Assembly (NCBI RefSeq): GCF_002752675.1
Contig: NZ_CP024608.1
Span: forward strand, 4,340,001-4,404,000
Origin: Massilia violaceinigra
GTDB lineage: Bacteria; Pseudomonadota; Gammaproteobacteria; Burkholderiales; Burkholderiaceae_D
DNA length: 64,000 nt
Direction of reading: 5' to 3'
Shown piece by piece: positions 31,653 through 53,432 of this stretch. The notes beneath the pieces are model-generated. The model did no database searches and had not been told where the DNA came from. It saw only the letters and a list, made by a program, of their open reading frames with translations. How positions within the stretch are numbered: position 1 is the stretch's first letter; every line of letters starts with the position of its first letter. The translations under genes were made by a program, and so were the position numbers.

Positions 31653-34073
31653 ATGAAATTGTTTCTTTACCTGTGCGTCGGTATCCTTCTCCTGCCCGTG
31701 CCTGACGATGCGAGCGCCGCCGGCGCCACGCTGACGGGCTACCAGCAACCCAGCGCACCCTTGCAAGCCATCGTCGACGCGCCGCGCCCTCCCGCGGCCA
31801 TCGGCGGTCCGCAGCGGCGCACGGTCGCGCTCCTCGAACGCCCCGCCCGTCCGGCTCTGCAGGATCTGCCCAAGGGCAGCATCAAGCTGTCCGGCCTGAC
31901 CATCGATACCTTGCATTGCGCCGGCGCCCAGCCCGCATTCGGCCATGAGCTGAACCTGCTCAACGTCGCCGATGGGCGGCAGCGCCCGGTCTTGGGGCTG
32001 CCTCCACGGGCGCGCATCGCGCATCTGGAGTTTTCGCCCGATGAGCGCTGGATCGCGCTATCGCTGTGGCACGAGGGCCGGGTCCAGTTGTGGCTGGTCG
32101 ATGTCGCGGCGGCGCGCGCCCGGCGCTTGCTGGAGCGGCCGCTGAACACTGTCCTGAGCAATGGTTTCAGCTGGATGGCCGGCTCGCGCACGCTGCTGGT
32201 CAGCCTGGCCCCCGAGGGTGCCAGGCCAGCGCCGGCCGCTGCGCCAGTTGCGGCCCCGGCGGTCCAGGAAAGCGTCGCCGGCAAGCCGGTACAGGTCAGC
32301 GCCATCGCCGATCCGCTGCCCCCGGGTCGCGCCGCCGAGATGCTCGGCTGGTACTTGCAGCGCCAGCTCGCCAGCGTCGATGTGTCGGGAAAACTGACCC
32401 TGATCGGCACCGCGGACCGGCTGCTGGCGGCAGCGCCTTCGCCCGACGGCAATTACATTCTGGCCAGCCGCTTGCAGGCACCGTTTGCGCCCGCCGTGTC
32501 CGTGTTGCGCTGGGCACGCAGGACCGAACTGTGGGACCGGCGCGGGAAATTGATCAAGGTACTGCACGACAATGCGCTGAACGATCGTCCGGCCCAGGAC
32601 CGTGATGCCGTCGAGCCGGGACCGCGCGAATTCGGCTGGCGCGCCGACGCCGCCGCGGCCTTGCACTGGCTCGAGGCTGGCGACGGCGGCGATCCGCGCA
32701 CGCAGGCCGAATGGCGCGACGTGCTGTACGAGCAACGCGCCCCATGGCGCCAGCCGGCGCTGGTGCTGGCGCGCGTGAAGGGCCGCATCAACGATGTGGC
32801 CTGGGGCAGCGGCGCGCTGGCGGTGCTGACCGAGACCTGGTTCCAGCAGGGCGAGCGGCGCACCTGGCGCATCCGCCCGCAGCAGCCCGATGCGGCGCCG
32901 GCGCTGATGTTTCGCAGGAAAATCGAAGACCGCTACGGCGATCCCGGGCGCCCGATGAAGCGCGCGCTCGACAATGGCGAGCGCGTCCTGCTTACCAGCA
33001 CCGATGGCGCATCGCTGTTCTATGCGAGCGCCGGCGCGAGCGAGGAGGGCGACCGTCCGCAGCTGAACCGCTACCGCCTGGACGATGGTGAAACGACCAC
33101 CTTGTGGCGTGCCCAGGCGCCGTATTACGAACGGGTCCTGGTCATGCTCGACCGCGATGGGCGGCGCTTCGTGACCCAGCGCGAGAGCCAGGACGAGCCG
33201 CCCAACCTGTTCGTACGCGAGGATGGCGCGCCGCCACACGCGCTGACCGCCGTGCCCAGTCCGTTCGCGTGGATGAAGTCGGTCGAGGTGCGGGTGCTGC
33301 GCTACCAGCGCGCCGACGGGGTGGCGCTGAGCGGCAAACTGTACCTGCCGCCGGGCTACCAGCCAGGGCGCGATGGCCCGGTCGGGGTGCTGATGTGGGT
33401 GTACCCGCGCGACTTCCAGTCGCGCTCGGCTGCGGCCGAGGTGCGCGATTCCTCCCATCGCTATGCCGACATCGATCCGCTCAGTCCGCTGGCGCTGGTG
33501 CGTCTCGGTTATGCCGTGCTGGACAACCCGAGCATGCCGATCGTGGCCGGGGAGGGTGGCGCGGCCAACGATGCTTACCTGGCCCAGCTCACCGCCTCGG
33601 CCGAGGCGGCGGTCGACGAGCTGGTGCGTCTCGGGGTGGCGGAGCGCAAGCGCATCGCCATCGGCGGCCACAGTTACGGCGCCTTCACGGTCGCCAACCT
33701 GCTTGCCCATACCAGGCTGTTCGCCGCCGGCATTGCCGAATCGGGCGCCTATAACCGCAGCCTGACGCCGTTCGGTTTCCAGTTCGAAAAGCGCACCCTG
33801 TGGCAGGCACCCCAGGTGTACCAGGCCATGTCGCCGTTTCACCATGCGGACAAGATCGCCGCCCCCCTGCTGATGATCCACGGCCAGGCCGACAGCAATC
33901 CCGGCACCATGCCGCAGCAAAGCGAACGCCTGTTCCAGGCCCTGAACAGCATGGGCGCCGTGGCGCGGCTGGTGACCCTGCCGGACGAAGAGCACGTGGT
34001 GCGCGCCGGCGAATCGGTCTCGCACGTGCTGTGGGAGCGTGAACGCTGGCTGCAACGCTTCCTGCGTCCATGA
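31653..34073 (+). CDS. Prolyl oligopeptidase-family (S9) secreted peptidase
   Basis: An 806-residue peptidase with a signal peptide ('FLYLCVGILLLPVPDDASA'). Residues ~30-520 are propeller-like ('HLEFSPDERWIALSLW'). From ~560 on comes an alpha/beta hydrolase domain with S674 in 'IGGHSYGAFTVAN', D747 in 'MIHGQADSN' and H781 in 'PDEEHVV' as the catalytic triad. This layout resembles S9C acylaminoacyl/glutamyl peptidases. It should cleave short peptides in the periplasm. Its stop overlaps the start of hddA by ATGA, tying it to the peptide cluster. It may trim leader fragments, mature the peptide, or break down an imported one (inference). Confidence 0.88.
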   Translation: MKLFLYLCVGILLLPVPDDASAAGATLTGYQQPSAPLQAIVDAPRPPAAIGGPQRRTVALLERPARPALQDLPKGSIKLSGLTIDTLHCAGAQPAFGHELNLLNVADGRQRPVLGLPPRARIAHLEFSPDERWIALSLWHEGRVQLWLVDVAAARARRLLERPLNTVLSNGFSWMAGSRTLLVSLAPEGARPAPAAAPVAAPAVQESVAGKPVQVSAIADPLPPGRAAEMLGWYLQRQLASVDVSGKLTLIGTADRLLAAAPSPDGNYILASRLQAPFAPAVSVLRWARRTELWDRRGKLIKVLHDNALNDRPAQDRDAVEPGPREFGWRADAAAALHWLEAGDGGDPRTQAEWRDVLYEQRAPWRQPALVLARVKGRINDVAWGSGALAVLTETWFQQGERRTWRIRPQQPDAAPALMFRRKIEDRYGDPGRPMKRALDNGERVLLTSTDGASLFYASAGASEEGDRPQLNRYRLDDGETTTLWRAQAPYYERVLVMLDRDGRRFVTQRESQDEPPNLFVREDGAPPHALTAVPSPFAWMKSVEVRVLRYQRADGVALSGKLYLPPGYQPGRDGPVGVLMWVYPRDFQSRSAAAEVRDSSHRYADIDPLSPLALVRLGYAVLDNPSMPIVAGEGGAANDAYLAQLTASAEAAVDELVRLGVAERKRIAIGGHSYGAFTVANLLAHTRLFAAGIAESGAYNRSLTPFGFQFEKRTLWQAPQVYQAMSPFHHADKIAAPLLMIHGQADSNPGTMPQQSERLFQALNSMGAVARLVTLPDEEHVVRAGESVSHVLWERERWLQRFLRP

Positions 34074-35149: not shown

Positions 35150-35220
35150 AGCGCGCCGGCGGGGCGGGGACGGAACCCGCGCTCATGCAACAAGCCGCAT
35201 TTCTTGGCAAAGATTAAAAC

Positions 35221-35248
35221 TTGACGCGTGGTAAAAACTGCCTAGAAT
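35221..35248 (+). promoter_or_regulatory. Promoter of precursor peptide 1
   Basis: TTGACG (35221-35226), a 16-base spacer and TAGAAT (35243-35248), about 70 bases before the precursor ATG. The flanks AAAAC before the -35 and GCACTGGCATCCTC after the -10 recur almost unchanged before precursor 2, so the promoter was duplicated together with the gene. Confidence 0.72.
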
Positions 35249-35320
35249 GCACTGGCATCCTCAACGCGAGCGTGCGGTGCATGGCAACGGTCATGTTATC
35301 AATCTTTTAAAGGAATAAGC

Positions 35321-35494: not shown

Positions 35495-35841
35495 TGTTCC
35501 CGTCGGCGTAAGGTGATGCGGGCGCTGCCTGTCCGGGAATCCCGTTACGGCCACGCCGATGCGCCTTCAGTCAGGCGCGCAAGCGGCAATATCGCCCGGG
35601 TCGTGGCAGCGCTCGCATCCCGCTCGGATGACCGGTTTTTCCCCGGTTTATCTGGGCGCTTGGACTAAAAACATGCACTTCGGTAAAGGCCGCACGGGGT
35701 GGCCCTGATAACCGAATATTGCAGATCAGGAAAACTTGACTGAAAGTTAAAACTGTTTAGAATGCATTGGCATTCTCGTCCATAAAACCTGAATGCGATA
35801 CATGGTATGGACCATGTTATCAATCAAACCCGGAGTAAAAC
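35495..35841 (+). promoter_or_regulatory. Spacer with promoter of precursor peptide 2 (35736-35763)
   Basis: This 347-base spacer carries no gene. It contains a GC-rich stretch with possible hairpins, including ACCGG-T-rich loop-CCGGT near 35631-35647, which may act as a weak terminator. The promoter is TTGACT (35736-35741), 16 bases, TAGAAT (35758-35763). The promoter flanks and the downstream words GCATTGGCATTCTC and CATGTTATCAAT match the region before precursor 1, marking a duplicated unit. Confidence 0.68.
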
Positions 35842-36211: not shown

Positions 36212-36291
36212 GCATTGGCATGCTCATTTCCTCAGCGGGAAGGCAATGCGTGTGATTTTGTCAGGTCATCAATAATATAGTGGAGAAAAGC

Positions 36292-36523: not shown

Positions 36524-38209
36524 ATGTTTTATCCGAATACAAAGAAGTTACTTGAAAGATTACAGATGACCGAAACCCGTTATTGGTGGCCCCTCGAATT
36601 GAGCGATGAGCTGGAAGACTCTCTTGCCGCGCATAAGGACTGGTTACGGGGCGCCCCGGTGCAATTCGATGCCGGCCGGTCCAGGCAGGTCGAAGGCGCG
36701 CTGGTCGATTTCCTGGCCAAGCCGGTACAGGGAATCGTCGCGCGCGACAGCCTTCCGTATCTCGGCCACGTTTTCGTCGGCTGGGGCAATGCGACCGTGA
36801 ACGGCACGCCGCTGCTCGACCGGGTGGCTTCCTTCGTCCACCAGGACCCGTCCGGCAAGCCGTATATTTACCAGTGCCACCCGGAGGGCGACTTCCATCC
36901 GTGGCAAACCTTTGCCTACACCATGATGGCCGGGATCGACCCCGAGGCCAAGGTTGGCGCCTTGCCGTTCACCCTGCGCGAGATCGCGCAGCATTCGACC
37001 GTCATCCGCACCTCGGCCATGGACGATCTGGGGCACCTGATGTACGCGCACGCCGCGCTCGGCCTGCCCGACACGCTCACCTTCGAATTCAACGGCAAGC
37101 CGCTGACCTTGGGCGCCATGATGGACGAGGCGGTCAAGGCCCACCATTTCGGACCGTTCTATGTCTGCCGCAAGTTCCATCTGACCGAAGGCTTGTGCGC
37201 CATCGCCGCCACCTATCCGGCCTTCGCGCGCTACCGGCCGGTCGCACAGAAATTCCTCGACGGCCAGCTCGAAGTCATGCTGACCCTGTCGCTGCTGGTC
37301 GCCCAGCTCGAGGCGGTCGCCGCCGGTACCCTGACGATGGACGAGAGCAGCATTCCCGCCCTGCGCAAGGCCATGCTGATCGGCGCATTGCTGGAGAACC
37401 ACGTGTACTCGGCCGGCCATGTGATCGAGCTGGCGGCGCTTGCCATGCGCATGGGCTACCAGGTCAGCGACGTCCACCGCAGCGCCATCCACCATCTGCT
37501 CAATCACTTCAATGGTTGCGTGCAGCGTTCGATGACCCGGTTCGCCCCCACCGCCGCGTTCCTGCCGATGGGCCATTTCCGGCGCGCCATCTCGCTGTAC
37601 GCCAACCTGCATGAAGCCGAAACGGATCAGGACAGCGCCTCGCGCGCGGCGCTGACCGGGTATTGGGCTAACTTCGATACCAGTGACGGCACGCTCGCCG
37701 AACTGCCGGCGGCCCCGGTGGACGCGCTGTACAATCGCGCCCAGCATTCGGCCAAGGTGCGTCCCTTCTTCCAGTCGGTGCTTGATGAATTTGCCCAAGG
37801 TAATTCGACCGGGATGGACCTGTACGGCGGCTTCGACCATTTCCGGCGCCTCCATCCGGACGGCTGGCCGCGCCAGATGCATTTCGAGTTCCTCGACTAT
37901 GCGGACCGCGTGGGCGTCGAACTGCACTTCGAAAACCCGGACCTGGTGCCGCTGATGGATGCGGTGGCCGCGTCCATTCCGGCGCTCCAGGAAAAGTTTC
38001 CTGGCATTGAGGTGCACGGCTTGCGCCGCGCCGACCGCAGCGAGGCGAAAATCCGGCTGTATCACGACCCGGCGACCGGGCCGGTCGACATTTCCAAGTC
38101 GATGCAGGAATTTGTCGCCTTCATGAGTCCAATCGTCTCGGCCGAGTTGCACAATCCGGTGCACGGCATCCAGCGCAGCCGCCTGGACGCGAGCGCGGCG
38201 GCGCACTAA
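36524..38209 (+). CDS. Unrecognised 561-residue protein of the peptide cluster
   Basis: I do not recognise this family. The protein is soluble (no signal, no membrane helix), rich in His, Ala and Leu, probably mainly helical in the middle. Notable clusters are 'YQCHPEGDFHPWQTFAYTMM' (about 105-125), 'IAQHSTVIRTSAMDDLGHLM', 'AHHFGPFYVCRKFHLTEG', and 'DVHRSAIHHLLNHFNGC' (about 315-335). Several of these histidines could bind metal. The C-terminal ~100 residues look alpha/beta. It immediately follows the three precursors and precedes the glycosyltransferases, the usual place of the class-defining modifying enzyme. Starts are possible at ATG 36524 and ATG 36566; neither has a strong ribosome site, and the first is used here. 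Confidence 0.7.
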   Translation: MFYPNTKKLLERLQMTETRYWWPLELSDELEDSLAAHKDWLRGAPVQFDAGRSRQVEGALVDFLAKPVQGIVARDSLPYLGHVFVGWGNATVNGTPLLDRVASFVHQDPSGKPYIYQCHPEGDFHPWQTFAYTMMAGIDPEAKVGALPFTLREIAQHSTVIRTSAMDDLGHLMYAHAALGLPDTLTFEFNGKPLTLGAMMDEAVKAHHFGPFYVCRKFHLTEGLCAIAATYPAFARYRPVAQKFLDGQLEVMLTLSLLVAQLEAVAAGTLTMDESSIPALRKAMLIGALLENHVYSAGHVIELAALAMRMGYQVSDVHRSAIHHLLNHFNGCVQRSMTRFAPTAAFLPMGHFRRAISLYANLHEAETDQDSASRAALTGYWANFDTSDGTLAELPAAPVDALYNRAQHSAKVRPFFQSVLDEFAQGNSTGMDLYGGFDHFRRLHPDGWPRQMHFEFLDYADRVGVELHFENPDLVPLMDAVAASIPALQEKFPGIEVHGLRRADRSEAKIRLYHDPATGPVDISKSMQEFVAFMSPIVSAELHNPVHGIQRSRLDASAAAH

Positions 38210-38332: not shown

Positions 38333-39814
38333 TTGCACCTGTTTCCCCCGCTTACGCTTGCCGCCGCCGGCCTGTCGGCCCACAAATGGCCCAGCGTCAC
38401 GCGTACCGCGCAGTTCTATCGCGACGCCCTGGCCGCGCTCACCCCGGAACTGCTGGAGGTCGACGAGGCCAGCGCCATGCCGAACGGCGTCAGTGTGCTC
38501 CTGAACTTTTCCGGTAATGCCGGCTGGGACCTGGCGCGCGGCGAGCGCGACTTTCCCTGCCTGTTCGGCATGCACGGAGGATGTGTGCTCAGCCGCAAGT
38601 TCCTGCTTGAGCGCTTGCCAACGCTCAACTCACAAGATGGCTTGATCGTCAATTGCAGTTCCGACGCCGAGGTCATCCGCAACATGCTGGGCGATGCCAC
38701 GCCGGCGCTGGAATTATTGCCCTTGCCGGCAGATACCGATCTGTTTACGCCGCAAGGACGTGACGCGGCGCGCGCGCAGCTCGGTTTGACCGAGCAGCAT
38801 TTCTGCATCGGCATCGTGGCCCGGCTGCTGCCGCAAAAAAATGTTCACGGCGCGCTCGACGTGGTGCGCGAGCTGGTGCAGCGCCATCCCGGGCGGGCCA
38901 TCCGGGTCGTGATCATCGGTAATTTCTGGATCGACTACCCGGTACTGCGCTTTAGCGAGACCGCTTATTCGGGCCAGCTCAGGACCCTCATCGGCGAGTA
39001 CGGCCTGGACGAGGTGGTGAGCTATCTGCCCGCCTCGCTGGCCGACGCCGAACTGGCCACCGCCTACCGCGCCTTCGACGTGCTGCTGCATCCGACCAAT
39101 TCGATCGATGAAAACTTCGGCTACGCCCCGGTCGAAGCCATGGCCAGCGGGGTTCCCGTGGTCGGCTGCGCCTACGGCGGCCTGAAAGATACCGTGATCG
39201 ACGGCGTCACCGGCTATCTCGCGCCCTCATGGCTGAGCCTGGGCGGCCTGCGCGAAGACCGCTCGGCGCTGCTGCATGGCCTGGAGGCGCTGCTGGGCGA
39301 CCAGGCCCATGCCAGAAGCATGGGCGCCAACGCGCGCCGCCACGCCGAGGAAAGCTATTCGCGCGCGCACTGCATGGCCGTGCTGCAAGACATCGTGCGG
39401 CGCACCGCCGCCAACTGGGACCGCTCCAGCCGCCGTGCGCTGCAACTGCGCGCGGTCCCCGACATGCGTGCCTACGACCGCCATCTGACGCCCGCCGGCG
39501 AGCCCTTGTCCGACTTCGCCGCCTCGATCCTGGACTACACCAGCCGCATCACGCCGACCGCCGGCCCCGGCTGCGTGCTGCAGGCGTATGCGCCGCACAC
39601 CGCGCGCGCCGACGGCGCCATCGTGCTGGACAATCCCGCCTGGCCGGCCGCTTACCACGCCACGCCGCTGCAGCGCGAGGTGCTCGCGCGCAGCGCAGCG
39701 CCGTTGCCGGCGGCGGCATTGCTGGATGCGACCGGGGCCACCTTGCACGATCTCGACCAGATGCTCGCGCTTGGCATGCTGATCACCCGCAACGGCGCCG
39801 CGGGGTGCGCATGA
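38333..39814 (+). CDS. GT4-family glycosyltransferase with C-terminal extension
   Basis: A 493-residue protein if started at TTG 38333, which has GAGGA eight bases upstream and begins 'HLFPPLTLAAAGLSAHKWP'. It has the GT-B layout of GT4 enzymes: an N-terminal lobe with 'CLFGMHGGCVLSR', then 'IGIVARLLPQKNVHGALDVV', and the retaining-enzyme signature 'DENFGYAPVEAMASGVPVVG' with the paired glutamates. The last ~110 residues, including 'PLQREVLARSAAPLPAAALL', lie beyond the usual GT4 end and look like a small helix-turn-helix or PqqD-like domain; this could recognise the leader peptide (speculative). It overlaps the GT2 gene by ATGA. Likely role: sugar transfer to the peptide or an intermediate. 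Confidence 0.85.
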   Translation: MHLFPPLTLAAAGLSAHKWPSVTRTAQFYRDALAALTPELLEVDEASAMPNGVSVLLNFSGNAGWDLARGERDFPCLFGMHGGCVLSRKFLLERLPTLNSQDGLIVNCSSDAEVIRNMLGDATPALELLPLPADTDLFTPQGRDAARAQLGLTEQHFCIGIVARLLPQKNVHGALDVVRELVQRHPGRAIRVVIIGNFWIDYPVLRFSETAYSGQLRTLIGEYGLDEVVSYLPASLADAELATAYRAFDVLLHPTNSIDENFGYAPVEAMASGVPVVGCAYGGLKDTVIDGVTGYLAPSWLSLGGLREDRSALLHGLEALLGDQAHARSMGANARRHAEESYSRAHCMAVLQDIVRRTAANWDRSSRRALQLRAVPDMRAYDRHLTPAGEPLSDFAASILDYTSRITPTAGPGCVLQAYAPHTARADGAIVLDNPAWPAAYHATPLQREVLARSAAPLPAAALLDATGATLHDLDQMLALGMLITRNGAAGCA

Positions 39815-43051: not shown

Positions 43052-45319
43052 ATGACGATCATTAAGTTTTCTCAATTCCTCAGCGCACCCGTGCTGGCGG
43101 CCATGGTGCTGTGCAGCGAGGCACAGGCGCAAGACGCCCCGGCCGCGCCCGCCGCGCCGGCGCCGTCCGCCACCGTCGCGCCTGCCACTCCGGTCAGCGT
43201 CGAGCCTGCCGCTCCGGTCAGCGTCGCGCCTGCCGCTCCGGTCAGCGTCGCGCCCAACCCTGTGCCGCAGGTGGAAATTGCCGCCAGCCGCAACGATGAC
43301 CGCCGCCAGTCCAGTACGTTCCGCCAGGTCCTCGGCACGGCCGACCTGGTGCGCTATGGCGATGGCAGCGTGCTCGACGTGCTGCGGCGCCAGCCGGGGA
43401 TCGTCGTCAGCGGCGTTCCGGGACGCAAAGGTGGCGAACTGAGCATGCGCGGACTGGGCAGCGGCTATGTGCGCATCCTGCTCAACGGCGATCCGGCCCC
43501 GCCCAATTTTTTGCTCGACAATCTTTCTCCCGATGTGGTCGAACGCATCGAGATCATGACGGTGCCCACGGTCGAGATGGGAACCCAGGCCATCGCGGGA
43601 ACCATCAATATCATCCTCAAGCGCAGCAGCGGCAAGCGCCAGCTGCAGCTGCGCGCCGGCGTGTTTCACGACAACGACCGCACCAAGCCCCAGGTTTCCG
43701 CCACCTACGGTGACCAGGATGAGTCGCTGGCGTGGCTGGTGACGGCGTCGGCGCGCCGCATGAGCGCCGACGAGCCCTTCCTGACCCGCACCGACGGCAG
43801 CGGCGAGGACGGGCCCATCCTGCGTCACCTGGAGCAGTACAACGAGGACCGCGGCTGGAACTGGAACATCGCCCCGCGCATCACCAAAAAACTCGGTGGC
43901 GACAATTCCCTGACCTGGCAAAGCTACCTTGCCGGCATCGTCTACGACAGCGCAGGCTACGGACGCACCACGTTCGTGCAGGGGCCGCCGACGGCGCTGG
44001 CCAACGAAGACTACACCAGCGAAGGTTCCTCGCTGACGGTACGCAACAACCTGACCTGGCTGAGCACCTTGAGCAGCACCAGCAAGCTGGAGGCGAAGGC
44101 GGGCGCGACCCTGGTTCGCTCGGACAGCTCGAGCGGGGTCGATTATGTCGACGGCCACAAGCGCGTGCTGAACCGCCAGGATCTCGCGCGCGACAACCGC
44201 AACCGCAGCCTGATCGCGTCGGCCAAGCTGCGCAACGCCTACATGGACAAGCATGCCTTCGTCAGCGGCATCGAGGTCCAGCATGATCGCGACGAGCTCG
44301 ACCGTAGCGACGTGATCGATGCGGTGTCGCGGCTCGACCAGACCGGCAACAGTTTCCGGGTCGATAGCCGCCGCCATGCCCTGTATGCCCAGGATGAATG
44401 GGATATCGCGGCGCGCGTCGCGCTCTACCTCGGCTTGCGCTGGGAGCGCGTATCGCTGCACAGCGAGAACAATCTGGGCCGCCGGGTCGATTACGCCAAG
44501 GCGATGCTGAGCCCGGTATTGCAGACGGTCTGGCGCCTGCCCGGCACCAAGTCCGACCAGTTGCGCCTGGGCCTGGCGCGGACCTGGCGCATGCCGCAGG
44601 CCGACAGCCTGATTGCGGGGCGCACCCTGTCGGTGAACAATACGGTGACCCGGCCCGACAGCGGCGGCAACCCGAACCTGCGGCCCGAACGGGCGCTGGG
44701 ATTGGACCTGGCGTACGAACACTATCTGAGCCAGGATGGCCTGGTCAGCGTGGGCCTGTTTGCGCGCCGCATCGACGATGTGACCCTGACCCAGAGCGTG
44801 CGCGAAGACGGACGCTGGGTGGCCCGTCCCACCAACAGCGGGCGGGCACTGGCGCGCGGTATCACGCTCGAGACCAAGTTCAAGCTGCCGCAGCTGGTCG
44901 GCGGGGCGCCCGCGGTCGAGCTGCGCGGCTCGCTCTCGCGCACCTGGTCGTCGGTCGACGCGGTGCCGGGGCCGGACAACCGGATCGGCACCCAGGCGCC
45001 GCTGTCGATCAATGTGGGGGGCGACTACAGCTTCAAGTCGGCACCGATCTCGGCCGGCGCGACGGTCGGCTATATCCGCAACGGCAGCGTGCGCCTGTCG
45101 CGCTTCGAAACCTCCGCCGAGACCAATAAACGCGTGCTCGAAGGTTATCTGCTGTGGAAAATCCAGCCCAAAATGCAACTGCGCCTGAGCGGATCGAACC
45201 TCTTGCATGAAGACGATGTCAAGCGCTCGAGCTATGATGGCGATACCTTATGGCAAACCAAGACGGTGACGTCCCCCACCTACACGGTGCTGCGGGCGAT
45301 TCTTGAACTGAAATTCTGA
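43052..45319 (+). CDS. TonB-dependent receptor of the peptide cluster
   Basis: A 755-residue receptor with a signal peptide ending 'VLCSEAQAQD', followed by an unusual Pro/Ala/Val linker of about 50 residues encoded partly by a 24-bp repeat. The plug domain comes next ('VLDVLRRQPGIVVSGV', 'GSGYVRILLNGDPAPPNFLL', 'DVVERIEIMTVPTVEMG'). The barrel ends in 'YTVLRAILELKF' with a terminal phenylalanine. It lies between the epimerase gene and the exporter genes in the same direction, with a 58-base gap upstream and 36 bases downstream. It may take the finished peptide back up or pass it across the outer membrane; receptors of this type are also found with lasso peptide and microcin clusters. Confidence 0.88.
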   Translation: MTIIKFSQFLSAPVLAAMVLCSEAQAQDAPAAPAAPAPSATVAPATPVSVEPAAPVSVAPAAPVSVAPNPVPQVEIAASRNDDRRQSSTFRQVLGTADLVRYGDGSVLDVLRRQPGIVVSGVPGRKGGELSMRGLGSGYVRILLNGDPAPPNFLLDNLSPDVVERIEIMTVPTVEMGTQAIAGTINIILKRSSGKRQLQLRAGVFHDNDRTKPQVSATYGDQDESLAWLVTASARRMSADEPFLTRTDGSGEDGPILRHLEQYNEDRGWNWNIAPRITKKLGGDNSLTWQSYLAGIVYDSAGYGRTTFVQGPPTALANEDYTSEGSSLTVRNNLTWLSTLSSTSKLEAKAGATLVRSDSSSGVDYVDGHKRVLNRQDLARDNRNRSLIASAKLRNAYMDKHAFVSGIEVQHDRDELDRSDVIDAVSRLDQTGNSFRVDSRRHALYAQDEWDIAARVALYLGLRWERVSLHSENNLGRRVDYAKAMLSPVLQTVWRLPGTKSDQLRLGLARTWRMPQADSLIAGRTLSVNNTVTRPDSGGNPNLRPERALGLDLAYEHYLSQDGLVSVGLFARRIDDVTLTQSVREDGRWVARPTNSGRALARGITLETKFKLPQLVGGAPAVELRGSLSRTWSSVDAVPGPDNRIGTQAPLSINVGGDYSFKSAPISAGATVGYIRNGSVRLSRFETSAETNKRVLEGYLLWKIQPKMQLRLSGSNLLHEDDVKRSSYDGDTLWQTKTVTSPTYTVLRAILELKF
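43181..43252 (+). repeat. Three copies of a 24-bp in-frame repeat
   Basis: Three near-perfect 24-bp units (43181-43204, 43205-43228, 43229-43252) inside the TonB receptor gene encode Pro-Ala-(Thr/Ala)-Pro-Val-Ser-Val-(Glu/Ala), lengthening the periplasmic linker before the TonB box region. Copy number can change by slippage without shifting the frame. Confidence 0.85.
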
Positions 45320-45355
45320 GCCACGCCGCCCAGCGGCCGATTCGCAGGAGTAATG

Positions 45356-45853
45356 ATGTTGGATATGTACCGCCAGGAAGCCACGGCGGCCAGGCAGGAA
45401 AGCGCGTACGGCGCCATGCTCGAGCTGCGGCCGTTCCTGTTCAAAGGCGCGTCGCTGCTGGTGGTGGCGCTGGCGGTGTTGCTGATGGCCTCGCTGATGC
45501 TGGGGCGCGCCGCCAGGATCGTGCAGGTGCCGGCCGTGGCGCTGGCCGGGGACCCGGTGGCGCCGCACGCGGTCCGGCTGGCGCTGGCCGGCCCGGCGCC
45601 GGTGCTCAGGCCAGGCCAGCAGGCGCTGCTGCGCCGTGCTGGCGCGCCGGCGCTGGCCTTGCCGGGCAGCGTCGCCCGCTTCGAGGCCGGCACGCCGGTG
45701 CGCGTGCTCTTTAGCACCGACGCGGCCCATGCGGCGCAGCTGGCGGACATGCTGCGGGGCGGGGCCGAGCTGCGCCTCGAACTGCGGCTGCCGGCGCAAA
45801 CCTTCGGCCAGTGGCTGTCCGGCGTGGCGCTGCAGCGCGGCGGCAAGCAGTGA
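45356..45853 (+). CDS. Shortened HlyD-like exporter subunit
   Basis: A 165-residue protein (ATG 45356, AGGAG five bases upstream; ATG 45353 also possible). The N-terminus, 'MYRQEATAARQESAYGAMLE' then 'LRPFLFKGASLLVVALAVLL', is the typical start of HlyD/CvaA-type adaptors of C39 exporters, with one membrane helix. The C-terminus, 'LRLELRLPAQTFGQWLSGVA', resembles the end of the same adaptors. The ~200-250 residues normally between, with the lipoyl and coiled-coil hairpin domains, are absent; adaptors are usually near 400 residues. The frame is clean and overlaps the ABC transporter by GTGA, so it looks like a working reduced form, not debris. Confidence 0.7.
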   Translation: MLDMYRQEATAARQESAYGAMLELRPFLFKGASLLVVALAVLLMASLMLGRAARIVQVPAVALAGDPVAPHAVRLALAGPAPVLRPGQQALLRRAGAPALALPGSVARFEAGTPVRVLFSTDAAHAAQLADMLRGGAELRLELRLPAQTFGQWLSGVALQRGGKQ

Positions 45854-47994
45854 GCCGCTGGCGCACGCTGTTCGGGCGCCTGCGCGCGCCTGCGCCGGTC
45901 CTTGTCTTGCAGTCCGAGGCGGCCGAATGCGGCATCGCCTGCCTGGCGATGGTGGCCAGCTTCCATGGCTACCAGATCGACCTGGGCACCCTGCGGCGGC
46001 GCTATTCGCCGTCGCCCAAGGGCATGCGGCTGGTCGAGCTGATGGACATCGCGGAACAGCTGGCGCTGTCGGCGCGCGCCGTCAAACTCAATCTTGCCGC
46101 GCTCGACCTGCTGCAGCTGCCCGCCATCCTGCACTGGGACTTCAACCATTTCGTGGTGCTCACCAAGGTCGGCAAGGACAGCGCCGAGATTTACGATCCG
46201 GCGCGCGGGCGCCGCACGCTGGCGCTGTCGGAACTGTCGCTGCACTTTACCGGCGTGGCCATGGAAACGCGGCCCATGCCGCACTTCCAGGCGCGGCGCG
46301 AGCGGCGCACGATCGGATTCCGGCAACTGCTGGGGCGGGTGACCGGCTTGCGCCGCCAGGCGCTGCGCATCGTGGCGCTCTCGCTCGTGCTCGAACTGTT
46401 CAGCGTGCTGGCGCCGCTGTTCATGCAGCTGGTCATCGATCATGCGGTGCTGGCGCGCGACACCACGCTGGTGCTGCAGCTGGCCCAGGCCTTCTTCCTG
46501 CTGCTGCTGGCGCAGGTGGCCATTTCCGCGTCGCGCAGCTGGCTGATGACCTACCTGGGGACCCACCTCAATCTGCGCCTGATCGGCAACCTGTTCCATC
46601 ACCTGCTGCGCCTGCCCATCGAATTTTTCGAGCGCCGCCACCTGGGCGACATCGCGTCGCGCTTCGACTCGCTCAATACGATCCAGCGCACGCTCACCAA
46701 CGGCTTCCTGGCCGCCATCCTCGACGGCGCGATGGCGCTGGTGACGCTGGCGATGATGTTCTTTTACAGCGCCACGCTGTCGTGCGTGGTGCTGGCCGCG
46801 GCGGCCATCTATGTCGTGCTGCGCATCAAGCTGTACCGCGCATACCGCATGTCGACCCAGGAACAGATCGTGTGCGCCGCCCGGCAGCAGAGCCAGTTCC
46901 TGGAATCGGTGCGCGGCATCCAGAGCATCAAGCTGTTCGGGCGCGAGCAGGCGCGCGGCAGCACCTGGCTCAACTCGGTCGTGGCGACCTTCAACGCCAG
47001 CTTGCGCACCCAGCGCGTGAGCGTCAGCTTTCAGCTGCTCAACACCCTGTTGTTCGGGATCGAAAACATTGTCGTCATCAGCGCCGGCGCCACCGCGGTC
47101 ATCAATGGCGCCATGTCGGTGGGGATGCTGTTTGCCTTCCTCTCGTACAAGCTGCAGTTTGTCAGCCGGCTCGGCAGCCTGGTCGACAAGGTGACCGATT
47201 ATTCGATGCTGGGGCTGCACCGCGAGCGGGTGGCGGACATTGCCCTGACCGATGCCGAAAAGACCGATGGCGACCCGGCGCGGGAAGGCGCGTTTGAGGC
47301 GGGCATCGAACTGGTCGATGTCGGCTTTCGCTACTCGCCGGCGGAGGAGCCGGTGCTGCGCCACGTGAACCTGCGCATCGCGCCGGGCGAGTGCGTGGCC
47401 ATCACCGGGCCGTCCGGCTGCGGCAAGACCACCCTGATGAAGATCATGCTGGGCTTGCTGCAGCCGACCGAAGGCCAGGTGCTGGTCGGCGGCGTGCCCT
47501 TGCAGCGCATCGGCCTGAAGACCTGGCGCCGCTCGATCGGTTCGGTGATGCAGGACGATACCCTGTTCGCCGGTTCGATTGCCGAGAACATCAGCTTTTT
47601 CGACAGCGACGTGAATCCAGGCGCCATTGCCGAGGCCGCCATGATGGCCGACATCGACGGCGACATTGCGAAAATGCCGATGGGCTACGATACCTTGATC
47701 GGCGACATGGGCAGCCTGCTCTCGGGCGGGCAGCGGCAGCGCCTGCTGATGGCGCGCGCCCTGTACCGCAAGCCCAGGCTGCTGTTTCTCGACGAAGCGA
47801 CCAGCCATCTGGACGCCGGGCGCGAGCAGACGGTCAACCGGGCGATCCGGGCCCTGCCGCTGACCCGCGTCATTATTGCGCACCGGGCCGAGACGATCCG
47901 GATGGCCGACCGCGTGATCAACTTCCCCCTGGCGGCGGACGATGCCGGGCAGGCCGGCGCGGCCATGGCGCCGGCGGCGGGCGGCGCCGCATGA
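45850..47994 (+). CDS. C39-peptidase ABC exporter
   Basis: A 714-residue exporter that both cleaves and transports double-glycine peptides. The N-terminal C39 peptidase has C27 in 'QSEAAECGIACLAM', a histidine in 'WDFNHFVVL' and an aspartate in 'IYDPARG'. The membrane domain spans ~160-440. The ATPase has Walker A 'GPSGCGKTT' (~520), signature 'LLSGGQRQRLLMARAL', and Walker B 'LLFLDEAT'. GTG 45850 is the start; it overlaps the HlyD-like stop as GTGA. The substrate is surely the three precursors with GG leaders 10 kb upstream. Its stop overlaps the start of the HddC-like gene, so export and heptose activation are translationally linked. Confidence 0.93.
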   Translation: MSRWRTLFGRLRAPAPVLVLQSEAAECGIACLAMVASFHGYQIDLGTLRRRYSPSPKGMRLVELMDIAEQLALSARAVKLNLAALDLLQLPAILHWDFNHFVVLTKVGKDSAEIYDPARGRRTLALSELSLHFTGVAMETRPMPHFQARRERRTIGFRQLLGRVTGLRRQALRIVALSLVLELFSVLAPLFMQLVIDHAVLARDTTLVLQLAQAFFLLLLAQVAISASRSWLMTYLGTHLNLRLIGNLFHHLLRLPIEFFERRHLGDIASRFDSLNTIQRTLTNGFLAAILDGAMALVTLAMMFFYSATLSCVVLAAAAIYVVLRIKLYRAYRMSTQEQIVCAARQQSQFLESVRGIQSIKLFGREQARGSTWLNSVVATFNASLRTQRVSVSFQLLNTLLFGIENIVVISAGATAVINGAMSVGMLFAFLSYKLQFVSRLGSLVDKVTDYSMLGLHRERVADIALTDAEKTDGDPAREGAFEAGIELVDVGFRYSPAEEPVLRHVNLRIAPGECVAITGPSGCGKTTLMKIMLGLLQPTEGQVLVGGVPLQRIGLKTWRRSIGSVMQDDTLFAGSIAENISFFDSDVNPGAIAEAAMMADIDGDIAKMPMGYDTLIGDMGSLLSGGQRQRLLMARALYRKPRLLFLDEATSHLDAGREQTVNRAIRALPLTRVIIAHRAETIRMADRVINFPLAADDAGQAGAAMAPAAGGAA

Positions 47995-48707
47995 TGGCGC
48001 TGCCGCGGGTGCTGATCCTGGCGGGCGGCAAGGGCACGCGGCTCGGCCCGCTGCTGGGAGGCTTGCCCAAGCCGATGGCGATGGTCGGCGGGCGGCCATT
48101 TCTCGCGCACCTGATCGAGCGGCTCGGCGCGGCCGGATTGACCGACGTGACCTTGTCGCTGGGATACCAGGCCGACTGCATCATCGGCCACTTCGGCGAG
48201 CGCCATGGCGGCGTGGCGCTGCGCCATGTGATCGAGCCGAGCGCGCTGGGCACGGGCGGGGCGATCGCCCTGGCCCTGGCGGGGCAGGGCGACGCGCCAT
48301 GGCTGGTGATGAACGGCGATACCTGCTTCGACATCGATTACCATGCCTTTATCGCTTGCTGGCGCGCGCGGCCGGCGCACCTGGCCATGGCGCTGACCGA
48401 ACTGCCCGATTGCTCGCGCTACGGCAGGGTCGTGGTGCGCGCCGGACAAGTGATCGACTTCGCCGAAAAGCAGCCCGGCGCGGCAGGGCTGATCAATGCC
48501 GGCCTGTATCTGCTGACCGAGAATATGCTGCGCCCGTTCGGGCTGCCGCCGCACTATTCCTTCGAGACGGAACTGCTGCAGGCGCACTGCGCGGCGCTGC
48601 AGCCGAGCGCCTTTATCGCGGACGGCTATTTTATCGACATCGGCGTACCGGACGATCTCGAACGGGCGCGCCGCCATATGCCGCTGCGCGCGCCCGGTGC
48701 GGGCTGA
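47991..48707 (+). CDS. hddC: Sugar-1-phosphate nucleotidyltransferase, HddC type
   Basis: A 238-residue nucleotidyltransferase: 'VLILAGGKGTRLGPLLGGLP' with the nucleotide loop, a conserved lysine in 'LPKPMAMVGGRPFLAHLI', 'IEPSALGTGGAIALAL', and 'WLVMNGDTCFDIDY' with the metal-binding aspartate. This pattern and length fit D-glycero-alpha-D-manno-heptose 1-phosphate guanylyltransferase (HddC), which makes the GDP-heptose donor. Together with HddA- and GmhB-type genes it completes the GDP route. Glucose- or mannose-1-phosphate transferase is the alternative, less likely given the neighbours. ATG 47991 overlaps the exporter stop (ATGA). Confidence 0.82.
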   Translation: MMALPRVLILAGGKGTRLGPLLGGLPKPMAMVGGRPFLAHLIERLGAAGLTDVTLSLGYQADCIIGHFGERHGGVALRHVIEPSALGTGGAIALALAGQGDAPWLVMNGDTCFDIDYHAFIACWRARPAHLAMALTELPDCSRYGRVVVRAGQVIDFAEKQPGAAGLINAGLYLLTENMLRPFGLPPHYSFETELLQAHCAALQPSAFIADGYFIDIGVPDDLERARRHMPLRAPGAG

Positions 48708-48736: not shown

Positions 48737-49336
48737 TCAGCGCGCGTGCGCAAGCATGTGGCGCGCGGCCTGGCCGAGGTCCGGGTACAGGGGGTGGGCA
48801 TGCTTGCCCGCGCCATCCGGTCCGATCATGAGGCTGCGCACGCCGGCACCCTGGCCGGCCAGCATGTCGCTTTCCTGGTCGCCGAGCATGAAGCAGCGCG
48901 CCGGGTCCAGCTCCCATTTTTCGATGGCGTGCAGCAGCATGCCGGGCTGTGGCTTGCGGCAGGCGCACGCGATGGCGTAGGGCGCCAGCGTACCGTCGCG
49001 GTGGTGAGGGCAGCAATACAGGGCGTCGAGGTGCACGTCCTGGCGGGCGAATCGCGCGAGCAGGGCGTCGTGAATCTGCGCCAGGCGCGCGACGGTAAAC
49101 AGGCCGCGCGCCACGCCGCTCTGGTTGGTCACCATGATCAGGCGAAAGTGCGGCGCCAGTGCGCGCAATGCCTCGATGACGCCTGGAAGGATCTCGATGC
49201 CCGCCACTTCCGACAAATAGTGCTTGTCCCTGATCAGGACCCCATCGCGATCGAGGAAGACCGCCTGCCTGAGACCGCTGCGCTGCGGCTGGGTGCCGAA
49301 GGTGGTCACGTGGTGGATCGCCGGCGTGATTGTCAC
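48737..49336 (-). CDS. gmhB: D-glycero-D-manno-heptose 1,7-bisphosphate 7-phosphatase, GmhB type
   Basis: A 199-residue HAD phosphatase. It has DRDG in 'AVFLDRDGVLIRDKHY' (D29 nucleophile, D31 acid), 'MVTNQSGVARG' (motif II), zinc-binding Cys/His in 'YCCPHHRDGTLAPY' and 'ACACRKPQPGM', and 'CFMLGDQESDMLAGQGAG' (motif IV). This is the full GmhB signature. It removes the 7-phosphate from heptose 1,7-bisphosphate, the step between HddA and HddC. The start is GTG 49336, overlapping the radical SAM stop by GTGA. An in-frame ATG at 49519 would overlap that gene by ~190 bases and is rejected. It converges on hddC. Confidence 0.9.
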   Translation of the reverse strand: MTITPAIHHVTTFGTQPQRSGLRQAVFLDRDGVLIRDKHYLSEVAGIEILPGVIEALRALAPHFRLIMVTNQSGVARGLFTVARLAQIHDALLARFARQDVHLDALYCCPHHRDGTLAPYAIACACRKPQPGMLLHAIEKWELDPARCFMLGDQESDMLAGQGAGVRSLMIGPDGAGKHAHPLYPDLGQAARHMLAHAR

Positions 49337-50259
49337 GGCGCTGCGGCCTCTGCCTTGCCGTCCTCGGGCGCCAGTAGGCCGGCGAGTTCGGCGCGGGCGC
49401 GCGGACTCAGCAGCGTGGGGGCGAAATGCACGATCCGGGACGCCTCCTCGATGGCGGCTTTTTTGCTTTGCAGCAGATGGGGGAAGCTGGCGCCGTCCGA
49501 ACCGAGGCACCATTTGCATGCTTCAAGGGGATCATCGCGTTGCAGGTAGCGCAGCAAGTCGCCGAACAGATCGGGATTGTCGCGCATCATGACGCCGTCG
49601 GCCGGGCGGTTGTCCACCAGTTGGCCGCAGCTGCCCAGGCGTTCGCCCAGGATCGGGCTGCGCGGGCACATGTAGTAGCGGCCCTCGGCGAAGGTGTGGC
49701 AGCTCCACTCGGCGCGCGGCTTGCAGCGCTTGTAAATTTGCTGCACCAGGGCCGGATCGTCCAGCGGCACGCTCAAGTGGGTTTCCTGGAACGTGGCATA
49801 CGCACTGATCGCGAAGGTGAAGCCGAATTGCTGCGCCTTGCGCTCGAGGTCTTCGCGGGTGTAGCGCAGGCGCACGCGCGGATAATGGCTGACCTCGATG
49901 GAATCGACATTGCTGAAGAAGTCGTCGGACATGTTTTCCAGGCCGACGCCATTGGTGGTAACACACACGTACTTGGCCACGCCGCTGGCCTTGGCCAGTT
50001 TCAGCAGTTCCACAAGGTCCGGATGCAGCAAGGGTTCACCGCCCACCAGGAGCAGTTTGTGCACGCGCGCGGCGCTGCCGAGCGCCGCCAGATCGCGCGC
50101 GAACTCCTCGGGGGAGAGCATCTTGACAGGGCGGGCCGGAGAGCCGTGCACGCACCCTTTGCAAGTGAGGTTGCAATTGAAGGCGACCTGGACTTCCACC
50201 TTGCGCAAATAGATCAGCTGATCCTTGATCACATAGTTCAGCGCCGCAGTGTCGTTCAT
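49333..50259 (-). CDS. Radical SAM protein with C-terminal cysteine cluster
   Basis: A 308-residue radical SAM enzyme. The [4Fe-4S]-SAM motif CxxxCxxC is C29, C33, C36 in 'FNCNLTCKGCVHGSP', followed by 'LLLVGGEPLLHPDLVELL' (GGE motif). The C-terminal half has several further cysteines ('CKPRAEWSCHTFAEGRYYMC', 'GSCGQ', 'ACKWCLGS') that could hold auxiliary clusters as in SPASM/Twitch enzymes. Such proteins form thioether, C-C or epimerised residues in peptides, or modify sugars. It is transcribed with gmhB away from the precursors, from its own upstream region. ATG 50259 has AAGGA nine bases upstream. The target (peptide or heptose) is open. Confidence 0.88.
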   Translation of the reverse strand: MNDTAALNYVIKDQLIYLRKVEVQVAFNCNLTCKGCVHGSPARPVKMLSPEEFARDLAALGSAARVHKLLLVGGEPLLHPDLVELLKLAKASGVAKYVCVTTNGVGLENMSDDFFSNVDSIEVSHYPRVRLRYTREDLERKAQQFGFTFAISAYATFQETHLSVPLDDPALVQQIYKRCKPRAEWSCHTFAEGRYYMCPRSPILGERLGSCGQLVDNRPADGVMMRDNPDLFGDLLRYLQRDDPLEACKWCLGSDGASFPHLLQSKKAAIEEASRIVHFAPTLLSPRARAELAGLLAPEDGKAEAAAP

Positions 50260-50678: not shown

Positions 50679-53432
50679 CTAGCGGAACGCGTAATTCACG
50701 CTCGCATACAAGCGCCGTCCGCGCGGGTCGGTGTAGGTCGGATCGTAGCCGGAAATGAAGAAGTTGGCCTGGTTCGAGTAAGGCGGCGCCGTGTCGAACA
50801 TGTTCTGCACGCCGGCGCGCAGTTTCAGGTTCTTGCTCCATCCGTAGGACAGCGACATGTCCCACAGCGAGTACGCTTTCACGCGGTTGGGCGCGACCAC
50901 GCTGCCGTCGTCGATGTTGATGGCCGAGTTCTGGTCGTCGTAAGACGCCGAAAACGTATTCGACAGGGTCGCCGACAGCGGCCCCTGTTCCCAGTCCATG
51001 CTGACCGTGTGGCGCCAGCGCTGCACCACGCCGTCGGTAACGAACTTGCCCAGGTTGCTGATGTAGGCGTCGCCCGGACTGGTCTGGATGCTCGACTTGA
51101 GCACGTAGGTGCCGTTCAGGCGCGCGCCGAAGCGGCCCATGCCGGTGTTGACGCTGCGCAGGTTGACCACCAGGTCCAGGCCGCTGGCAAGCTGGGCGCC
51201 GCGGTTTTCCTTGTGCAGCTCGATGTAGTCGATGTCGCCGTCTTCATCGCGGTGCACCAGGTTGCCGTATTTGCCCAGGTTGCCGAGGATGATGTCGTCG
51301 CCGATCTCGCTGATCAGGTCGGTGCGCTTGATCTTCCAGTAGTCCAGGCTGGCATTCCAGTGCTTGCTCGGCTCGACCACCAGGCCGGCCGAGAACTGGC
51401 GGCTGCTTTCCGGTTTCAGGTTCACATTGCTGTAGCGCCGCGTATCCCAGGCGTCGGCGCAGTCGGCGTAATTGTTGTCGACGGTGGCGCAGTAGACCGG
51501 GTCGGGCAGGATGGCGGTATAGCCGTAGACGGTCGGGCGGTACAGGTCGGACATCGATGGGGCGCGGAAGCCCTTGCCGGCCGAAGCGCGCACCGTGAGC
51601 GCCTTGTTCGGGGTGTAGGCCATGCCGATTTTCGGGCTCAGGGCGCCGCCGACCTGCTGGTAGCGGTCGTAGCGGGCCGAGAGCTGGCCCTGCCACTCCT
51701 TGGTGAATGGCGCCAGCAGTTCGCCGAATACGGCGTATACCTTGCGCTGGTCGCTGGTGGCCTTGCCGCCCTCGGGGGCGGCATCGTTGTTGATGTTGTC
51801 GCTCATCAGCAATGCCGATGGACGGAAATCGGTGCGCTCGCGGCGCGCTTCGGCGCCCACCGCCACGCCCAGGTCGCCGCCGGCCAGGGTCATGAGTGAG
51901 CGCGAGGCCTTGAAGTCGAGCGAATCCATGGTGCCGCGCGCGCGCCGCACCACATCGTTGACCTGGATGCTGTTAAGTAGCGCCACGCCTTCGGCGCTGG
52001 ACGGACCGAACGGATTGATCCTGCCGTCGGCGATGCCGGCCATCAGCTGGTCGCTCAGCACGTAGCCGTGCGTGTCCTTGTCCTTGACCGTGTTCACGCT
52101 GTGGTTGTAGCCAGCGTCGTAATCCCAGCCGGCCGCGATGCCCGAAACGCCGACCACGTAGCGCTGGCTTTCGCTGGTCAGTTCGCTGGTGCGCATGCCG
52201 GCTTCGTTCAGGCGCATGCGCAGCTGGATTTCGCCGGGGATGTCGTCGTCGAGCTGGTCCAGGCCGGTATTGGCCAGGGCCGGAATCTTGCGGTAATCGA
52301 TGTAGCCGATCACGCGCGCCGACGAGCCGACATAGTTGGTGCGCGAGCGGCTCAGCGCCACTTCGGCATACGCCTGGGTGTCGGCGCCGAGCTTGATCAC
52401 ACCGCGGCTGAGCAGGTTCTGCTTGGTCGACTTGGGATACAGCTCGGTGTCGCCCATGTAGTCGTAGGTGCAGGCATCGACGCCGCCTGTGCCATCGGGC
52501 AGGTACAGATTGGCCGGCGGCGCGCAGGCCGGGATCGACAGGTTGATCTGGCGGTTGGTGATCGGCCGGCCGTTGAGCAGGAAGCCGGTTTCCTGCAGGT
52601 GGTCGCGCTGGGCCGGGGTCAGGCGGATATTTGCCGGGCTGGTAAAGCTCGACAGCAGATGGCCGAGGCGCTGCGGGATCTTCAGCTCGCTCACGAACTT
52701 GCGCTGCGACGTGTTGAGGCGCTCGGTGCCCTGCACGTCGAGCACGGCGAAGACGTTGTAGCCATCCTTTTCCAGCTCGCCCGTGCCCAGGCTGAGGGTG
52801 GCGGCGCGCTTGCCGGCGCCGCCTTCCCTGGTGCCGAGCGCGTAGGCGTTCACTTCCACCCCGCGAAAATCCTTGCGCGTGATGAAGTTGATTACGCCGC
52901 CGACCGCGTCGGTGCCGTACAGGGCCGAGGCGCCGTCGAGCAGCACTTCGACGCGCTGGATGGCGGCCGCCGGGATGTTGTTCAGGTCGACGCCGGTATC
53001 GTCGCCGGGCGAGGCAAAGTTGGCCATGCGGCGGCCGTTGAGCAGCACCAGGGTGGACGAGGTGCCGATGCCGCGCAGGTTGGCGCTGTTGAAGCCGCGC
53101 TGGTCGCCGTCCACCTTGATGCTGGCGCCGTCGGTCAGGCCGCCCACGTTGGACGAAATGCGCGTCATCAGTTCGGCGGCGGTGGTCACGCCGGCTTTTT
53201 CAATCTCTTCGCGCGTGACGATCTGCACCGGCAGCGGGGTGTCGGTCTCGATGCGCTTGATGGCCGAACCGGTGATCTCCACCTTCGGCATCGGCGCGTC
53301 GGGGGCCTGGGCCGAGGCGGCGCCATGGGCCAGCAGGCCGGCGGCGGCGCCCGCGTGGAGCGCCAGCCGGACGGCGCGCGTCAGGCGCGAAACGGGGAGG
53401 GGATGACAATACTGGCGATAGGGCTTGCGCAT
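50679..53432 (-). CDS. Large TonB-dependent receptor
   Basis: A 917-residue receptor starting at ATG 53432 (GGAG nine bases upstream). A long signal region ends 'LLAHGAASAQAPDAP'. The plug holds 'VEITGSAIKRIETDTPLPVQ', 'EIEKAGVTTAAELMTRISSN', 'TLVLLNGRRMANFASPGDD' and 'VEVLLDGASALYGTDAVGGV', the signature of the large receptors common in Xanthomonads, Sphingomonads and Oxalobacteraceae for peptides and glycans. The barrel ends 'RRLYASVNYAFR', an unusual final arginine after phenylalanine. It lies beside the radical SAM/gmhB operon in the same direction and may serve the peptide cluster, but could also be an independent nutrient receptor. Confidence 0.88.
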   Translation of the reverse strand: MRKPYRQYCHPLPVSRLTRAVRLALHAGAAAGLLAHGAASAQAPDAPMPKVEITGSAIKRIETDTPLPVQIVTREEIEKAGVTTAAELMTRISSNVGGLTDGASIKVDGDQRGFNSANLRGIGTSSTLVLLNGRRMANFASPGDDTGVDLNNIPAAAIQRVEVLLDGASALYGTDAVGGVINFITRKDFRGVEVNAYALGTREGGAGKRAATLSLGTGELEKDGYNVFAVLDVQGTERLNTSQRKFVSELKIPQRLGHLLSSFTSPANIRLTPAQRDHLQETGFLLNGRPITNRQINLSIPACAPPANLYLPDGTGGVDACTYDYMGDTELYPKSTKQNLLSRGVIKLGADTQAYAEVALSRSRTNYVGSSARVIGYIDYRKIPALANTGLDQLDDDIPGEIQLRMRLNEAGMRTSELTSESQRYVVGVSGIAAGWDYDAGYNHSVNTVKDKDTHGYVLSDQLMAGIADGRINPFGPSSAEGVALLNSIQVNDVVRRARGTMDSLDFKASRSLMTLAGGDLGVAVGAEARRERTDFRPSALLMSDNINNDAAPEGGKATSDQRKVYAVFGELLAPFTKEWQGQLSARYDRYQQVGGALSPKIGMAYTPNKALTVRASAGKGFRAPSMSDLYRPTVYGYTAILPDPVYCATVDNNYADCADAWDTRRYSNVNLKPESSRQFSAGLVVEPSKHWNASLDYWKIKRTDLISEIGDDIILGNLGKYGNLVHRDEDGDIDYIELHKENRGAQLASGLDLVVNLRSVNTGMGRFGARLNGTYVLKSSIQTSPGDAYISNLGKFVTDGVVQRWRHTVSMDWEQGPLSATLSNTFSASYDDQNSAINIDDGSVVAPNRVKAYSLWDMSLSYGWSKNLKLRAGVQNMFDTAPPYSNQANFFISGYDPTYTDPRGRRLYASVNYAFR

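Follow-up and report, generated by a model that had tools for sequence, protein, structure and literature searches.

Glycocins such as sublancin, pallidocin and enterocin F4-9 combine a Cys-containing core peptide, a double-glycine (GG) leader, a C39 peptidase/ABC exporter, and a family 2 glycosyltransferase (GT2). Mycofactocin and pyrroloquinoline quinone (PQQ) are cofactors that derive from ribosomally synthesized and post-translationally modified peptides (RiPPs); they have a short core that is conserved across phyla, and the mycofactocin cluster includes a glycosyltransferase. Methanobactin- and bufferin-type peptides, which are associated with MNIO (DUF692) enzymes, have a Cys core, an enzyme with multiple His and Glu residues and, in some loci, a TonB receptor. 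Each of these features has a counterpart, known or proposed, in a gene cluster of Massilia violaceinigra, at 31.6-53.4 kb of the window, by which we mean the whole 64,000-nucleotide stretch that we analyzed (positions 4340001-4404000 of contig C1 in a genome of 7.53 Mb). A first-pass annotation had proposed that this cluster makes a glycosylated, Cys-rich peptide outside the known classes. Our results support that idea: we consider it likely that the cluster makes peptides of a RiPP class that has not been described before, whose chemistry and biological role we infer. Precursor peptides with a near-invariant core travel with an orphan protein, U561, which matches no named maturase profile, and with a pair of glycosyltransferases from families GT4 and GT2. 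The genes are linked, they are conserved, and U561 is isolated from other protein families.

The cluster also differs from each of these systems. Unlike the glycocin clusters, it has an extra orphan protein, a GT4 and GT2 pair, heptose genes, and a core that is near-invariant across phyla. What sets it apart from mycofactocin and PQQ is a Cys-Gln-Cys core, the lack of any Pfam or NCBIfam match between U561 and the families of either pathway, and an exporter or a TonB receptor in some loci. MNIO enzymes, as generally understood, are TIM barrels, whereas U561 is predicted to be a helical toroid with an alpha/beta domain. We searched the literature and found no description of the cassette.

The three precursors in the window have a common leader, MxKIIAEL.......VAGG (the leaders are MKKIIAELNRDEAAGVAGG or near variants), and the tail IEGCC[ST]QxCC. 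Across the whole genome, the DNA pattern for GCCxQxCC has three matches, which are the three precursors. A looser pattern has 10 matches, versus 13 for the reversed control; at the scale of the genome, specificity is thus limited to the fuller motif. The regions upstream of the three precursors have a partly conserved stretch in common. Precursor 1 has a sigma-70-like site (TTGACG-16-TAGAAT, 35221-35248) 72 bases before its start, and precursor 2 has one 78 bases before its start (35736-35763); upstream of precursor 3, we looked for such a site and found none. Overall, there are five sigma-70-like sites in 5.3 kb, as compared to 0.9 expected from shuffles.

To find related loci, we scanned public genome contigs from 84,980 species with a profile of U561 only; the scan used two short peptide patterns and was not exhaustive. 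We found 17 related loci (referred to by L numbers), without using any information about precursors. Together with the window, these make up 18 stretches with 409,351 bases, which are the basis of the locus counts below. The loci are from Duganella, Pseudoalteromonas (four loci), Chitinophaga and Fulvivirga (two loci each), Kordia, Enhygromyxa, and five metagenome-assembled genomes (MAGs), of which one is gammaproteobacterial, one deltaproteobacterial, two acidobacterial, and one from Byssovorax, along with a half-length archaeal relative. Judging by the organism names, loci with a precursor, U561, and GT4 and GT2 span at least four bacterial phyla.

A six-frame scan of the 18 stretches for GC..Q.C gave 28 matches, every one of them on the strand of U561 and close to it, with distances up to about 5 kb (as in L004). 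Five shuffles gave 2, 0, 1, 1, and 2 matches. A linked short precursor with a leader and a conserved core, which is one hallmark of a RiPP, is thus present near U561 in 16 of the 18 stretches (the window and 15 of the 17 related loci). The two stretches without it are the archaeal L018 and L016, in which only 24 bases separate the start of U561 from the end of the contig. The first-pass annotation had suggested a database search for co-occurrence and had staked its proposal on the precursors being conserved with the cluster in relatives; the joint presence of the motif and U561 in these loci bears it out.

We aligned 25 of the 28 matches; the other three are near-duplicates from L013 and L015. 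For the precursor in L003, no start is defined. The only invariant columns are G39, C40, Q43, and C45, and the leaders vary freely. The near-invariant core is [LVI][IL]xGC[C][T]Q[G]C[C]. Within GCCTQGCC, we see C, T, or G at position 3, T, S, N, G, or V at position 4, and C, A, P, or G at position 8; the core from L011, GCGTQGCP, has just two Cys. A search of protein clusters with a precursor profile gave 76 clusters at E <= 10, and all 76 contain GC..Q.C, although this is partly circular, as candidates had to share short words. In 8 of the 76, position 4 (of the first motif) is N, G, or V. Eight precursors (P0113, P0119, P0120, P0121, P0123, P0125, P0131, and P0138) are tandem, with two leader-core units per protein. 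Separately, beside a SIS isomerase in the Kordia locus (L012, 2491-3509) there are three more small open reading frames (ORFs), whose leader is of the GG type and whose core differs; these are perhaps a second RiPP.

Other comparisons also link the precursors to U561. For 14 of the 76 precursor clusters (on 13 contigs), the longest contig is exactly equal in size to that of a U561 cluster, versus a mean of 0.125 for controls at shifted sizes; at least two of the 14 are loci that we had already fetched (L009 and L011) and are not independent. The strict DNA pattern for GCCTQGCC matches 1 of 395 genomes from Chitinophaga's phylum, namely the one with U561, and 0 of 188 genomes from Byssovorax's phylum; this pattern misses variants such as Byssovorax's own and GCGTQGCP from L011, and its reversed control has one match, in Byssovorax's phylum. 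The distance matrices for U561, GT4, and GT2 have correlations of 0.97-0.98 (window and 15 loci, with L003 and L018 left out), or 0.89-0.91 after thinning to 11. This is as expected of a unit that is inherited together, and common descent of the hosts may partly contribute. The distances for Epimerase_2 also track those for U561 (r = 0.99, n = 11).

U561 has no family match in Pfam, NCBIfam, or PADLOC. The first-pass annotation described it as a 561-residue protein. The gene is there, but the protein is more likely to have 547 residues with a start at 36566, which is where its nearest relative, P0001, begins. Among 5.8 billion proteins (7998 candidates scored), we found 97 clusters of homologues at E <= 0.001, all with at least 196 bits and none with a precomputed Pfam domain. 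A profile search added no bridge to any named family, and comparing 36 diverse homologues to Pfam gave one stray weak match. The nearest named relative is from Massilia sp. DJPM01 (92%). Among 148 relative genomes, just one, M. violaceinigra's own, encodes U561, so the gene is patchy. The AlphaFold2 model of U561, which has high confidence (predicted local distance difference test score 89.7), is a helical toroid with a C-terminal domain that resembles type III secretion (T3S) chaperones and YbjN. Across 94 sequences (the window's and the 93 of the 97 homologues with at least 480 residues), 25 residues are invariant: H82, G88, Q117, G122, H125, Q128, Y132, G170, H171, C215, K217, H219, L220, E222, G223, G298, H299, E302, H351, R354, H453, E455, E466, H468, and E470. 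This pattern suggests an active site rather than a scaffold.

Two members of the family are unusual. One homologue, P0063, is filed under the coral Stylophora pistillata and is probably from a coral-associated bacterium. The half-length relative in L018 (9797-10852, a Micrarchaeota MAG) is without relatives of the glycosyltransferases or the precursor motif, and a second matched segment is read through two TGA codons.

Sugar tailoring, which the first-pass annotation had also proposed, is well supported, as 15 of the 17 loci have homologues of both GT4 and GT2, and heptose, epimerase, and deacetylase genes are found as well. (We grouped genes across loci by blast clustering and checked representatives with Pfam.) The best match of GT2 to a sequence in PDB is to beta-1,4-galactosyltransferase, over residues 167-223 only (E = 2e-4). 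Three genes in the window have HddA, HddC, and GmhB as their best NCBIfam matches, each below the equivalog cut-off, and elsewhere in the genome there is a GmhA-like gene (206.4 bits, cut-off 209.45). Relatives of the sugar kinase and of the nucleotidyltransferase are each found in 9 of the 17 loci, and in three cases the nucleotidyltransferase is in one ORF with a GmhB-like phosphatase; relatives of the phosphatase are in L011, L012, and L016. Epimerase_2 relatives and polysaccharide deacetylases are in 10 loci each, and SIS_2 isomerases are in three. That the peptide itself is glycosylated, and on which residue, we infer.

We propose the following pathway. The T3S-chaperone-like domain of U561 would bind the leader, and the helical toroid and the C-terminal strands would form one active site, rich in His, Glu, and Cys and probably metal-dependent, that modifies the core. 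Because positions 3, 4, and 8 vary, any universal modification has to act on C2, Q5, C7, or the backbone. GT4 and GT2 would add two sugars, at Cys or Gln or, where present, Thr or Ser. In roughly half of the loci, the GDP-heptose pathway would supply a heptose as one of these sugars; a hexosamine that is epimerised and deacetylated is likely in some other loci. In loci like those of Massilia and Duganella, the C39 exporter would cut at GG, presumably on export, and secrete the product, which a TonB receptor and the S9 peptidase may take up and process. Conservation of the core to this degree across phyla speaks more for a small molecule with a general role (in metal or thiol chemistry, like a cofactor) than for a bacteriocin that is specific to a strain.

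More tentatively, U561 might be a new family of metalloenzymes that builds a crosslink or heterocycle from the invariant Cys-x-x-Gln-x-Cys of a ribosomal peptide. Bacteria of several phyla would then have a sugar-decorated small molecule with a general role, like that of a cofactor or metallophore; we think this possible but less likely than not. The boldest form of this reading draws on thioester proteins such as complement C3 and C4 and the thioester domain (TED) adhesins. The complement motif is G-C-x-x-Q, and in these proteins Cys and Gln are invariant, at i and i+3 after Gly, as they are here. In an internal thioester, the side chains of Cys and Gln are joined to each other (PMC4450167). 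In contrast to those proteins, the peptide here is short and has a protein family dedicated to it. A Cys-Gln side-chain thioester is possible but unlikely.

The limits on the comparisons above weigh against our reading of the locus as a single conserved RiPP system, and so do several features of the related loci. L003 has a weak relative of GT4 and another GT4-type protein but no relative of GT2, and the archaeal L018 has none of the other cassette genes. The kinase and the nucleotidyltransferase are missing from 8 of the 17 loci, so heptose is not universal. Export is not uniform either: the window has both GG leaders and a C39 exporter (best NCBIfam match NHLM_micro_ABC1, 487 bits, cut-off 853), but this combination is not general in the family. 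Just 8 of the 17 loci have relatives of the ABC exporter, and the homologues that cover the peptidase part are in L002 (Duganella) and L014. The ABC proteins that we tested in L004, L006, L008, and L011 have no C39 domain. The precursors in L004, L005, and L006/L007 are without GG, so L004 and L006, with neither, are consistent with the pairing of GG and C39. The precursors in L008 and L011 do have GG, which speaks against a simple rule.

Other genes for transport and processing are sporadic. TonB receptors are in four of the 17 loci (L002, L006, L007, and L012; L006 and L012 were checked with Pfam), and their presence in the window and in Duganella, Kordia, and Chitinophaga hints at re-uptake. 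No relative of the window's second TonB receptor was found in the loci by tblastn. S9 peptidases are in two loci: L002 has a relative, and the one in L004 was found by Pfam and is not linked by tblastn. The short HlyD-like protein has no match in Pfam or NCBIfam and a 33% relative in L002. Both Fulvivirga loci have related ABC proteins near U561 (L008, 4315-7350; L017, 5639-8656); the one in L008 has an N-terminal beta-lactamase-type serine hydrolase domain.

The redox genes fare worse. The first-pass annotation had included redox tailoring in the system, and our comparison places it outside the conserved core. In the stretches examined, just one of the 17 loci, that of Duganella, has a counterpart of the luciferase-like monooxygenase. 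The radical SAM gene is on the strand opposite to the main cluster genes; tblastn found no homologue in the 17 loci, and blastp found a 27% match, only in L004. A scan for CxxxCxxC in 234 called genes of at least 200 residues found it only in the window, L004, and L012. With another radical-SAM-type protein in an extension of the Duganella locus, such proteins are near U561 in 3 of the 17 loci, which counts to some degree against our reading; there is none in the stretches examined for the other 14. They may have an accessory role in some loci.

The strongest competitor to our reading is that U561 acts on a sugar, with the peptide as a mere glycosylated carrier or primer. Carbohydrate enzymes often have toroid folds, and GH88, GH105, and GH9 enzymes and sugar isomerases are among the structural neighbours of the U561 toroid; many of the loci also have a deacetylase, an epimerase, and glycosyltransferases. 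We give this roughly a one-in-five standing in our minds, that is, unlikely but worth taking seriously.

Somewhat less likely still is an antimicrobial like the glycocins, namely a bacteriocin with disulfide bonds and S- or O-linked sugar that is exported by C39, with U561 as an immunity or folding factor. Against it, the core is nearly identical across phyla, which is unusual for strain-specific bacteriocins, and there are two glycosyltransferases and an orphan protein with 25 invariant residues; some of the precursors, as in L011, have only two core Cys. This reading does account for the GG leader and C39 exporter, the Cys-rich core, and the GT2, and there is a precedent in pallidocin, a glycocin with S-glucose on Cys (PMC6405829). 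No SunS-type glycosyltransferase is among the matches: the GT2 in the window matched only generic GT2 and galactosyltransferase-type models, in a library that is expected to include a SunS model. The comparison to glycocins, which the first-pass annotation had drawn, is useful as an analogy and does not extend beyond that.

We think it improbable that the locus belongs, as a divergent example, to one of the known RiPP classes (lanthipeptides, sactipeptides/ranthipeptides, MNIO peptides, or thioamitides). Precursor 1 does match lant_leader_L1a weakly (14 bits, cut-off 22), and radical SAM genes are nearby in the window and three loci. However, lanthipeptide synthetase profiles (LanB/LanC, LanM, and LanKC-type) matched none of the scanned cluster proteins and none of the 36 U561 homologues, and Pfam found no MNIO enzyme among the latter. 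The first-pass annotation's statement that LanM, LanB, and YcaO enzymes are absent holds in our Pfam and NCBIfam scans of the cluster proteins. The Thr or Ser that a lanthionine needs at position 4 is replaced in the eight precursors mentioned above. A radical SAM maturase that is conserved with the precursor, as in sactipeptides and ranthipeptides, is not seen, given how sporadic these genes are. In short, the pathway works like that of a RiPP, with no defining enzyme of the tested classes present throughout. As for an ordinary surface-polysaccharide locus with incidental small ORFs, the glycosyltransferases, heptose-nucleotide genes, and epimerase would fit, but we can nearly dismiss it, as motif-containing ORFs lie beside U561 in 15 of the 17 loci, GCCxQxCC is nowhere else in the genome, and no polymerase or flippase family is among the window genes that we scanned.

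If our reading is correct, then this is a rare but widespread RiPP class that can be defined by a simple rule (U561 plus GCxxQxC), and genome-mining tools built around known maturases would probably overlook it. U561, as a family with no Pfam model and an invariant set of His, Glu, and Cys residues, would be a new enzyme worth characterising. With a core so extremely conserved, the question is whether the product is a secreted cofactor, a metallophore, or an antibiotic.

All of the gene parts that the first-pass annotation had listed were recovered by our ORF, Pfam, and NCBIfam scans (Table 1), and so were the start/stop overlaps, as six junctions of four bases. Five are on the + strand (34070/34073, 39811/39814, 41704/41707, 45850/45853, and 47991/47994) and one, between the phosphatase and radical SAM genes, is on the - strand (49333/49336).

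Table 1. Genes of the cluster, with positions in the window.
Feature	Position	Strand	Evidence or remark
S9-family peptidase	31653..34073	+	Peptidase_S9 E 3e-23; overlaps kinase gene
GHMP sugar kinase, best match HddA (heptose 7-phosphate kinase)	34070..35149	+	NCBIfam 288.6 bits, below cut-off of 600
Precursor 1, 57 residues	35321..35494	+	GG leader; core ...VIEGCCSQDCC...
Precursor 2, 60 residues	35842..36024	+	core ...VIEGCCTQKCC...
Precursor 3, 59 residues	36292..36471	+	core ...VIEGCCSQGCC...
U561 orphan protein	36566..38209	+	547 residues (561 if start at 36524); proposed core maturase
GT4 glycosyltransferase	38333..39814	+	Glycos_transf_1 E 6.2e-25
GT2 glycosyltransferase, galactosyltransferase-type C-terminal part	39811..40623	+	Glycos_transf_2 and Glyco_transf_7C
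MsnO8-family luciferase-like flavin oxidoreductase, accessory	40649..41707	+	TIGR03558 351.8 bits, above cut-off of 166.95
Epimerase_2 (WecB-like) sugar epimerase	41704..42993	+	Pfam
TonB-dependent receptor 1	43052..45319	+	Pfam
Short HlyD-like membrane protein, possible truncated adaptor	45353..45853	+	directly upstream of C39 exporter
C39 peptidase/ABC exporter	45850..47994	+	Peptidase_C39 E 3.1e-32, ABC_membrane, ABC_tran
Nucleotidyltransferase, best match HddC (heptose 1-phosphate guanylyltransferase)	47991..48707	+	162 bits, below cut-off of 300
GmhB-like heptose bisphosphate phosphatase (HAD)	48737..49336	-	149.1 bits, below cut-off of 178
Radical SAM protein, probably peripheral	49333..50259	-	Radical_SAM E 3.7e-12
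TonB-dependent receptor 2, membership uncertain	50679..53432	-	Pfam

On either side of the cluster, we noticed two other pairs of genes. At 28549-30950 (- strand), a PAS histidine kinase with a receiver domain adjoins an alpha/beta hydrolase, a pairing reminiscent of RsbP/RsbQ-like sensing. At 53985-54753 (+ strand), two neighbouring genes fall into one blast cluster, and the first of them is YbjQ_1, a putative heavy-metal-binding protein.

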